From Bacillota bacterium (GTDB lineage: Bacteria; Bacillota; SHA-98; Ch115): 64,000 bases of DNA. Shown piece after piece: positions 18,289-21,050 of the stretch. The stretch is taken from contig JABLXA010000004.1 in assembly GCA_013178415.1 (NCBI GenBank), positions 1-64,000 on the forward strand, given 5' to 3'. Every line of letters starts with the position of its first letter. The stretch's first letter is position 1. The translations under genes were made by a program, and so were the position numbers. Below the pieces are notes generated by a model that saw nothing but the letters and a program-made list of their open reading frames with translations, did not search any database and was not told where the DNA came from.

Positions 18289-20856
18289 TCACCATCCAAA
18301 TCGCCTGTAAAACCATCGCTTTACACTTTCCACCGTCAAAAGGTACGCCCCCACCATTCCGCCCAAAACCATGAGTAATGGAAATGGCAGCGGTCTGAAA
18401 TAGAAGAAGGCGCCGACCGGAGTATATGGAATTATCGTTCCTAATCCGACAGCCATGAGCGTAGTAATCCAAAGCATGGCGCTGGCGCGGCTCTTGAAAA
18501 GGCTATACCGCGAACGAATTATGTGTATGACCAGCGTCTGAGTAGCCAAGGATTCAACAAACCACCCAGTCTGGAAAAGAGAAGGGCCCGCATGGAATAC
18601 ATGAAGCATAACCAGATAAGTCACGATGTCGTAAAGAGAGCTGATCGGCCCGAATATGACCATGAAATTCCTTACAAAATCAATATTCCAACGCCTAGGC
18701 TGCCTTATATAATCGCTGTCTACCCTGTCAGTCGGGATACTCACCTGAGAAAAATCATAGAGAAGGTTATTTAGAAGTATTTGTACAGGCAGCATGGGCA
18801 AAAATGGGACCAGCAGAGACGCTATCGGGACACTGAACATATTCCCGAAATTTGAGCTTGTGGCCATCATGATATATTTCATAGTATTCGCGAATGTTCT
18901 GCGGCCTTCTATAATCCCCATCTCAAGAATGTGCAGCCCCTCCTCCAGAAGGACGATGTCCGCGGCCTCTTTGGCTACATCCACAGCATTGTTGACAGAG
19001 ATGCCTACATCCGCGGTTCTGAGCGCGGGAGCGTCATTGACGCCATCCCCCATATAACCAACAACATGTCCCGCTTTTTTTAGCACAGAGATGATCCGGT
19101 TCTTCTGCTCTGGGCTCAATCGCGCGCAAATAGTCGCGCCCTCAACTCTTGAGACAAGGTTTTCATCGTCCATGGCATCTATATCCTGTCCCATGACAAT
19201 CCCATGCACATCAAGTCCGACGCGCTCACATATGCGTCTGGTGACGAGCTCGTTGTCGCCCGTCAGAATCTTCACATTTACGCCGAGGTTTTTCAGTTCC
19301 TCAACTGCCCTCGCCGCACTCTCCTTCGGCGGGTCCGTGAAAGTGATGTAACCGACGAAGATCAATTCACTTTCATCAGTCGCGGAATAAACGGCCCGAT
19401 CATTTCCAATAGGACGGTAGGCCACCGCAAGAGCTCGGTACCCATCGCCGCTCAGCTGAACGAAACGAGCGAGAGCAAGCCTTTTAAGCTCGGGACTGAG
19501 TTCCAAAGTTTGTCCATTGAGTTCTATGAATTTGCATGCCTCAATTACACCCTCCGGCGCCCCTTTGGTTATCAGAAGCCGTTCCTTGTCGTTCTCCACT
19601 ACCACAGACATGCGCTTGCGGATGAAATCGAAAGGGATCTCATCCACCTTGATATACCCATCAGAACCGCCTCCTTTGTATGCTATTATTGCGGCATCCA
19701 TTGGGCTACGCAGGCTAGCCTGAAATGCGCTGTTAAGCCACGCCAATTTGAAGGTTCGCTCACAATTCTGCCCATTGATATCAATATGACTATGCAAGAC
19801 CAACTTACTCTCGGTTAACGTGCCGGTCTTATCGGTGCACAATACGTCCATACTTCCAAGGTTCTGTATGGATTGCAGGCGTTTAACGATCACCTTTCGT
19901 TTCGCCATCGCCGCCGCGCCGGTAGAAAGAGTGATGGTCATTATCATTGGCAAAAGTCCAGGAGTGATTCCGACTGATACGGCCACCGCAAAAAGCAAGG
20001 CTTGAAGGACCCCCCGGTGAAGTCCGACATTCAGCAAGAAAATCAATACGACGAGGGCAGCGATCACTTTGATAAGGAACGAGGTAAACTTCTTGATACC
20101 TCGCTGAAACTCGGTCTCTGGCCGCTCTATAGACAGGCTCCTCGCTATGCGGCCGAACTCAGTTTGCCCATTCGTCCCCACGACTATAGCAGTTGCTGTC
20201 CCGCTCACCACATTTGTGCCAGAAAAGACGGCATGATTCATATCGGGCACAGCCAGGTACGCACCAGGGTTATCGCACGGCATCTTCTCGACCGGAAACG
20301 GCTCCCCCGTGAGTATAGCCTGATCAACAAAGAAATCCCTTGCATAAAGTACCCTCGCGTCAGCTGGGACTATATCCCCTGCGCCAAGTCGTATTACGTC
20401 CCCTGGGACAAGCTCCCGCATCGGCATTTCGGAGATGATGCCATCCCGTACTACCGTAGCTGTAATTGCCACCTGTTTTGCGAGCTTTTTGGCGAACTCC
20501 TCCGACCGATATTCCTGGAAGAACTGAAGCGTGACACTAAGTATGACCAGGATTCCAATTATCACGGCGCCATGGAGTTCTCCGAATAAGGTCGAGATCG
20601 CCCCTGCCGCGATCAACACGGCCACAAGGGGCTGGGCGAAGAGCCTCAAATAGGCAAGCCAGGCCGGCACTCCGCGTGAACGCGGGAACTCATTGAAGCC
20701 ATACCTCTCCAAACGTACCGACGCATCTTCACTTGTTAGGCCGTCAGGAGTGGCCTCCAAACGCGACAGCAATTCCCCTATGGGCAGGTTGAGCATGTAG
20801 TTCTGGGCTGGCTGGTTCAGTTGATGGCTTAATCCATTCTTAGCGGCAAAGTACAT
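18289..20856 (-). CDS. mgtA: magnesium-type P-type ATPase (MgtA/MgtB group)
   Basis: This P3B-type cation ATPase, 855 aa, would import Mg. The N-terminal region has RLERYGFNEFPRSRGVPAW typical of the group. The actuator loop reads LTGEPFPVEK, with Pro after TGE. The phosphorylation site is CTDKTGTLTESK, the hinge is MGDGVNDAPALRTADVGISV, and six C-terminal helices follow. The gene is preceded by a sigma-A promoter and a leader of about 160 bases whose last hairpin covers the ribosome site, so control by RNA structure is likely. The ion is inferred from the family. Confidence 0.88.
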   Translation of the reverse strand: MYFAAKNGLSHQLNQPAQNYMLNLPIGELLSRLEATPDGLTSEDASVRLERYGFNEFPRSRGVPAWLAYLRLFAQPLVAVLIAAGAISTLFGELHGAVIIGILVILSVTLQFFQEYRSEEFAKKLAKQVAITATVVRDGIISEMPMRELVPGDVIRLGAGDIVPADARVLYARDFFVDQAILTGEPFPVEKMPCDNPGAYLAVPDMNHAVFSGTNVVSGTATAIVVGTNGQTEFGRIARSLSIERPETEFQRGIKKFTSFLIKVIAALVVLIFLLNVGLHRGVLQALLFAVAVSVGITPGLLPMIMTITLSTGAAAMAKRKVIVKRLQSIQNLGSMDVLCTDKTGTLTESKLVLHSHIDINGQNCERTFKLAWLNSAFQASLRSPMDAAIIAYKGGGSDGYIKVDEIPFDFIRKRMSVVVENDKERLLITKGAPEGVIEACKFIELNGQTLELSPELKRLALARFVQLSGDGYRALAVAYRPIGNDRAVYSATDESELIFVGYITFTDPPKESAARAVEELKNLGVNVKILTGDNELVTRRICERVGLDVHGIVMGQDIDAMDDENLVSRVEGATICARLSPEQKNRIISVLKKAGHVVGYMGDGVNDAPALRTADVGISVNNAVDVAKEAADIVLLEEGLHILEMGIIEGRRTFANTMKYIMMATSSNFGNMFSVPIASLLVPFLPMLPVQILLNNLLYDFSQVSIPTDRVDSDYIRQPRRWNIDFVRNFMVIFGPISSLYDIVTYLVMLHVFHAGPSLFQTGWFVESLATQTLVIHIIRSRYSLFKSRASAMLWITTLMAVGLGTIIPYTPVGAFFYFRPLPFPLLMVLGGMVGAYLLTVESVKRWFYRRFGW

Positions 20857-21015
20857 GGGAAGCGCCCCCCTTCCGGTCAGGGAGGCGCGTTAAAGGCAAG
20901 ACAACGCTAATCGCGTCTCGGCGATAACGCTCCCCCCTGTCTTGGAATGAATTGTTTCATGATGTTACGCTTACTACTTCCGTTTCCGTCTTCTGACATT
21001 GACGGTTCACCTCAC
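20857..21015 (-). promoter_or_regulatory. structured 5' leader RNA of the Mg-ATPase gene, candidate riboswitch
   Basis: The leader runs from the predicted start near 21015 to the ATG. Three structural parts are visible on the minus strand: a CCGTC/GACGG hairpin near the 5' end; an arm closed by CAAGACA (20944-20938) and TGTCTTG (20903-20897) with a long inner hairpin around CGAGAC; and a final 9-bp hairpin (20888-20862, one G-U pair) whose 3' arm contains the GGGGGG ribosome site 8 bases before the ATG. I do not see the conserved blocks of the M-box or of the yybP-ykoY element. The class is unassigned. Confidence 0.6.
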
Positions 21016-21021
21016 GGCTCT

Positions 21022-21050
21022 AGAATATTCCCATCGCACGGCATTGTCAA
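21022..21050 (-). promoter_or_regulatory. sigma-A promoter of the Mg-ATPase gene
   Basis: TTGACA (21050-21045) and TATTCT (21027-21022) are 17 bases apart on the minus strand. Confidence 0.75.

Follow-up and report, generated by a model that had tools for sequence, protein, structure and literature searches.

In Escherichia coli and Salmonella, expression of the Mg2+ transporter gene mgtA depends on translation of the leader peptide mgtL, whose efficient elongation at high Mg2+ represses mgtA and whose early abandonment by the ribosome at low Mg2+ derepresses it (PMC11282234, PMC11552253). The output is Rho-dependent termination, and the sensing peptide carries an EPDP motif (PMC11282234, PMC11552253). 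Upstream of mgtB in Salmonella, the published logic of the upstream open reading frame (uORF) mgtQ is the one that we propose below: a short uORF with its own Shine-Dalgarno (SD) sequence and early acidic codons precedes the gene of a Mg2+ P-type ATPase, the ribosome-binding site of the ATPase gene is buried in a stem-loop, and mutually exclusive stem-loops control its translation (PMC8092293). mgtQ has 8 codons, is intergenic and works with four segments (1:2 and 3:4 versus 2:3) (PMC8092293). In trp-type attenuators, the position of the ribosome on a short ORF likewise chooses between exclusive helices. Mg2+ transporter genes are also controlled by the M-box (ykoK leader, RF00380), and a conserved uORF with a genus-specific peptide has been described downstream of a mycobacterial M-box (PMC12810186). 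In the open-access literature, we found no account of uORFs before mgtA in Bacillota.

The window analysed here is a stretch of 64,000 nt from a Bacillota bacterium, and the leader of its mgtA gene is probably a leader-peptide (uORF) attenuator that would act on translation initiation, most likely the Bacillota counterpart of the enterobacterial mgtL and mgtQ leaders. Its likeness to mgtQ lies in the arrangement, and we claim no sequence relation; the window differs in having a 5' leader, a 30-codon uORF, three segments and a naked RNA that adopts the putative ON form. With mgtL it shares the target gene, an acidic-start uORF, alternative structures and, on our reading, an OFF state that follows completed translation, whereas its target would be translation initiation, and the uORF has no early proline and carries D/E-G-S-S as its motif, with AGU-AG codons. 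Compared with trp-type attenuators, the leader has no terminator, the output would be access to the SD, and there is no run of codons for a single amino acid except the AGU pair. No M-box was found in the window or in any of 17 genomes of its class, while control genomes were positive. The features are as follows, all on the minus strand.

21022..21050, sigma-A type promoter TTGACA-17-TATTCT from a consensus scan (-35 box TTGACA at 21050-21045, -10 box TATTCT at 21027-21022)
21007..21013, SD of the uORF, GAGGTGA, seen in the sequence
20986..21005, weak hairpin CCGUC/GACGG around the uORF start codon (-5.3 kcal/mol, z -2.4)
20907..20999, uORF for the leader peptide MSEDGNGSSKRNIMKQFIPRQGGALSPRRD (30 codons, AUG at 20999, stop ending at 20907), with conserved counterparts in six other mgtA leaders
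20973..20978, uORF codons 8-9, AGU AGU, the conserved AGUAG motif
20925..20939, segment A, CAGGGGGGAGCGUUA, the anti-sequestor, within the uORF near its 3' end, pairing with B
20878..20892, segment B, UAACGCGCCUCCCUG, common to the exclusive helices A:B and B:C
20862..20871, segment C, AGGGGGGCGC, 3' arm of the sequestor hairpin, which is kept in seven leaders
20870-20865, SD of mgtA, GGGGGG, inside segment C
18289..20856, mgtA, Mg2+-translocating P-type ATPase of 855 aa (TIGR01524)

The first-pass annotation of this DNA had described a near-ideal sigma-A promoter, a structured leader of about 160 bases whose last hairpin buries the GGGGGG ribosome site, and a gene for a Mg-type P-ATPase, and all of this was borne out. 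The promoter matches the consensus at 10 of 12 positions, and two such sites occur in the 601 bases scanned on both strands, as compared with 0.3 +/- 0.5 in shuffled sequences. From below the -10 box to the AUG at 20856 the leader measures about 165 nt, and it folds better than its shuffles (-62.8 versus -53.1 +/- 3.8 kcal/mol, z -2.55). The sequestor hairpin GCGCCUCCCU/AGGGGGGCGC has a 10-bp stem (20888-20879 with 20871-20862), reaches -21.7 kcal/mol (z -3.5) and encloses GGGGGG, and the gene product scores 939 bits against TIGR01524 (cut-off 611). The reported absence of M-box and yybP-ykoY blocks also stood up, as no Rfam 15 family matched at its gathering score and no M-box scored above 44 bits; three sub-threshold matches at E<=10 were at chance level. 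Between the mgtA promoter and an LCP-family (LytR) gene stands a terminator-like hairpin, GGGGCCCGGTGCCGGGTTCC-TTCTTT (21106-21087, minus strand), directly after the latter. In the nearest relative (genome G001), a tmRNA gene lies near mgtA (L002:582-934, RF00023, 177 bits).

What the earlier annotation had missed is the 30-codon, SD-led uORF, together with the pairing A:B as the most stable fold of the naked leader. The anatomy of the uORF can be read directly in the sequence. GAGGTGA is a perfect 7-nt match to the complement of the anti-SD, and only 8 nt separate it from the -10 box. The promoter geometry puts the expected start of transcription near 21015, practically on top of this SD, and very probably at the SD itself or 1-2 nt before it. 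The uORF spans the first ~100 nt of the transcript. An aptamer ahead of the uORF was considered and rejected, because with the -10 box so near the SD there is no room for one.

These observations bear on the reading of the first-pass annotation that the leader is a translational riboswitch, in which the leader RNA would itself bind Mg2+ or another ion and flip the SD hairpin. The SD-burying hairpin does have an alternative fold, and the leaders share a 5' block, GAGGUGA-CCG..CGG-AAGUAG, in which AGUAG is constrained at the nucleotide level; the pattern of this block matches once per genome in 3 of 17 genomes of the class (overlapping matches merged to one), each time before mgtA, and the reversed pattern, used as a control, gives no match. 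However, the block is accounted for by an SD, a start codon and a few codons, there is no conserved unpaired core outside these elements, the transcript very probably begins at the uORF SD, and no Rfam family matches. Moreover, the N-terminal peptide motif persists before other mgtA genes that do not have the CCG/CGG hairpin, which itself shows little covariation. We thus regard a ligand-binding riboswitch as quite unlikely, though a small aptamer may overlap the uORF start. What remains of the annotation's overall proposal is an unclassified regulatory leader that would act on the mgtA ribosome site; its riboswitch reading is not supported.

The pairing of the three segments suggests how a uORF could control mgtA. 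A:B and B:C are mutually exclusive, as the SD hairpin uses B for its 5' arm. The window's A:B helix consists of 8 bp, a 1x1 mismatch and 6 bp (-34 kcal/mol including the loop, z -5.3), with a pairing energy of -21.2 versus -14.2 +/- 2.9 in shuffles (p 0.016). The most stable fold of the naked leader contains A:B and not the SD hairpin, while RNA from 12 nt past the uORF stop onward, our stand-in for a ribosome at the uORF end, folds the SD hairpin B:C. It follows that full translation of the uORF would favor a buried mgtA SD, and that absent or early-aborted translation would favor an exposed one. Full-length naked RNA of the leader from the nearest relative (L002) also folds A:B, and the other five of the seven leaders compared below fold B:C. 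In those five, A:B would need co-transcriptional folding, given that B:C wins in the full-length RNAs. RNA ending just after B adopts the A:B fold in six of the seven leaders, and thus A:B can form first during transcription. Counted from the uORF stop, segment A occupies -31 to -18 in the window. In six leaders it falls inside the final 40 nt of the uORF, and in L123 it comes immediately after the stop.

The same arrangement was found in seven leaders, some of them closely related: L001 (the window), L002, L003, L121, L122, L123 and L138. Identity of MgtA to the window is 84% in G001 (L002), 73% in G004 (L003), 66% in G092 (L121), 65% in G160 (L122), and 64% in both G344 (L123) and G051 (L138). 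The leader sequence of L123 is identical in L040, from Firmicutes bacterium ADurb.Bin153. G051 has two mgtA genes in tandem (L004 / L041, G051:C29:87799-93112), and L138 is the leader of the second, with the complete uORF arrangement; in the leader of the first, the uORF SD and AGUAG are gone and a GC-rich hairpin near the start codon remains. A perfect SD of 7-8 nt (with GAGGTGA in every case), the position and open frame of a uORF of 11-31 codons, and the SD-burying hairpin are kept in all seven, and similar promoters precede the other uORFs, with 6-9 nt from the -10 box to GAGGTGA in six of the seven. What we find is therefore a positionally conserved, SD-led short ORF and two exclusive helices, one formed with the uORF and one that would control the target gene.

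The counterparts of the window's peptide begin MLEDGSSRSK..., MVDDGSSSN..., MDTDGPSSRR..., MSTDGAGSRP..., VSNGQSSHTS... and VSIGRSRRIIW. Pfam and NCBIfam scans of six uORF peptides gave no match. The central uORF sequence varies freely, and the central codons have no coding signature. Coding constraint across the entire uORF was rejected: between the window and L002, substitutions by hand count are about 5/7/8 at codon positions 1/2/3, and since they are about even, only the N-terminus and segment A look constrained.

Because a MAFFT alignment of the hairpin misplaced two 3' arms, pairing was tested by permuting segments across species. For A x B, 4 of 5040 permutations did as well as the native combination or better, and for B x C, 67 of 5040 did. 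The helices are kept upstream of orthologues, the outcome on which the first-pass annotation had made its proposal depend. Compared leader by leader with dinucleotide shuffles, the A:B pairing energy has p<0.05 in six of seven leaders (window 0.016 as above, L002 <0.002, L121 <0.002, L122 0.022, L123 0.024, L138 0.046) and is weak in L003 (p 0.18). The covariation can be followed at a single base. U20879 in segment B has A20871 as its partner in B:C and A20938 in A:B; the equivalent base in L122 is a C, facing a G in each of the two helices, and in L121 it is also a C, with G in C and with segment A shifted by a bulged U. Base 20879 is thus a three-way covariation across A, B and C as far as the compared sequences tell, and since it changes together with its partner in either helix, selection appears to act on one and the same B through A:B as well as through B:C.

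It could be argued that the hairpin merely sets a low basal rate of mgtA translation, or binds a protein, and that the uORF is incidental, since B:C alone is very stable in every leader. Against this, A and B co-vary, seven leaders preserve the uORF with its perfect SD, its open frame and its location, and the uORF motif is far commoner before mgtA than elsewhere. We hold this explanation to be very improbable.

We therefore return to the leader-peptide attenuator, for which the following course can be suggested. Transcription would start at the SD of the 30-codon uORF. A ribosome completing the uORF would cover A, or the loop needed by A:B; with A:B blocked, B would pair with C and bury the mgtA SD (OFF). 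Should the ribosome come off or be halted early in the uORF, A would stay free and pair with B, leaving the mgtA SD exposed (ON). The signal would probably be low cytosolic Mg2+, causing ribosomes to quit the uORF before its end, as happens with mgtL and mgtQ. The sequences themselves give the uORF, the pairing of A, B and C with its covariation, and, within what was searched, the confinement of the arrangement to mgtA. From the geometry, the target gene and the published analogues we infer that ribosomes translate the uORF, that the switch works in this direction and that it answers to Mg2+.

Which feature of the peptide would be read by the ribosome is less obvious. Among 106 mgtA leaders scanned, at least two acidic residues occur in positions 2-7 of 9 of 35 SD-led uORFs, and the figure for SD-led short ORFs flanking these loci is 11 of 274 (Fisher p 7.6e-5, from lineages that are not independent). 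In five of the seven leaders there are early acidic residues (ED, ED, DD, DTD and TD). The VSNGQSS and VSIGRSR uORFs have none and the window has just ED, so that classical intrinsic ribosome destabilization does not clearly apply; ED alone had little effect in E. coli reporters (PMC11282234).

The AGU-AG(N) pair and the G/S residues of the early codons are kept more strictly than the acidic residues. More distant Bacillota mgtA leaders also have uORFs starting M..(D/E)..G..S(S/R), with the serine pair coded AGU-AG(N), and in several of them the uORF lies downstream of an M-box. The pair is AGU then AGU/AGC, or AGU then arginine AGA/AGG, and every leader that has the pair uses AGU for its first serine. 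AGU followed by AGN within the first ~10 codons occurs in 26 rows from 116 leaders (61 kb) versus 8 in 1752 kb of control sequence, counts to be read with care, as the motif was defined after some cases had been seen, many of the 26 rows are near-identical relatives (the MDGGGSS.. group makes up 11, L040 and L123 are one leader, L121 is counted twice and a row of L135 seems spurious) and the control includes a true case at one or more loci. Roughly ten distinct lineages stand behind the rows. Two of the uORFs, L008 (VEDGSSHM..) and L148 (MEGGSRC..), were first seen outside the starting set. Other serines in these uORFs are often UCN, and AGY makes up 30-54% of the serines of mgtA, which argues for a constraint on AGUAG at the nucleotide level beside that on the peptide. 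In 13 leaders, pairing of AGUAG with downstream sequence gave no p below 0.05. The AGU-AG pair places one to three UAG/UAA stops in the +2 frame of all AGUAG-bearing uORFs, and L006 retains UAA UAG in that frame despite different codons (AAU AGU).

Since the most constant feature of the uORF is AGU-AG(N) and not acidity, and the first serine is AGU in all paired leaders while other serines of the uORFs are often UCN, it would be tempting to infer a real uORF switch that answers to another signal, such as Ser-tRNA (AGY), another translation stress, or nascent-chain arrest with a small effector. Yet, within the sequences searched, mgtA is the target, a gene more in keeping with Mg2+ than with serine, and the known uORFs of mgtA, mgtB and corA respond to Mg2+ (PMC8092293, PMC11552253). 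A signal other than Mg2+ is, in our judgment, unlikely.

Other mgtA leaders place a similar uORF in a different setting. An M-box (RF00380, 147-160 bits) precedes the uORF in L006, L125-L127 and L129. Pairing between the uORF SD/start and a segment farther along the leader has p <= 0.01 in L006, L125 and L129 and is significant also in L135 and L148; in the window's clade, p is 0.25-0.84. In the MDGGGSS group, the segment that pairs with the SD/start is also the loop and part of the stem GGCCACGU..ACGUGGCC, which is followed by UUUU (z -6.0) and is unlisted in a terminator scan with loops up to 8. We read the M-box leaders as candidates for transcription attenuation steered by the same kind of uORF, apparently a second attenuator in series with the riboswitch. 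Complementarity of 12-17 bp between the uORF SD/start and a segment downstream, after the M-box, is seen in L006, L125, L126 and L129, and the peptides of L129, L125 and L006 share IC...L-like residues.

uORFs also precede mgtA in other phyla. Four leaders of betaproteobacterial type (L092, L099, L105 and L108) have a conserved UUG-started uORF, LDCSS..., ~143-148 nt before mgtA. Their mgtA SD (GAGG) is enclosed in the hairpin CUCAAUUCCGG/CCGGAAUUGAG, and this is apparently another uORF-controlled leader. Three Bacteroidetes MAGs (L102, L114 and L115) have a conserved uORF M(P/Q)DSDEPGA..., ~256-267 nt before mgtA, whose acidic-proline start is similar to that of mgtL. A Spirochaetia MAG (L097) has an acidic and proline-rich uORF, MNDSDGSHSYCICTEPEDPFPRP..., about 200 nt before mgtA.

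The recurrence of the N-terminal peptide and codon motif before mgtA on a different RNA platform in other Bacillota points to uORF translation as the sensor. We tentatively raise the possibility, to which we give less than even weight, that widespread Bacillota mgtA leader peptides sense Mg2+ through M..(D/E)..G..S(S/R) with AGU-AG(N), by ribosome pausing or drop-off along a route other than the acidic/proline one. Two RNA platforms would then be served, SD sequestration in the window and an apparent terminator/antiterminator downstream of an M-box elsewhere.

If true, uORF-based Mg2+ sensing would reach beyond Proteobacteria into a group of Bacillota where the search for an M-box was negative. 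This suggests that the first uORF codons might form a modular sensor that can be joined to translational or transcriptional platforms, and the shared AGU-AG(N) pair would offer a concrete handle on how ribosomes may read Mg2+ with neither proline nor an acidic stretch.
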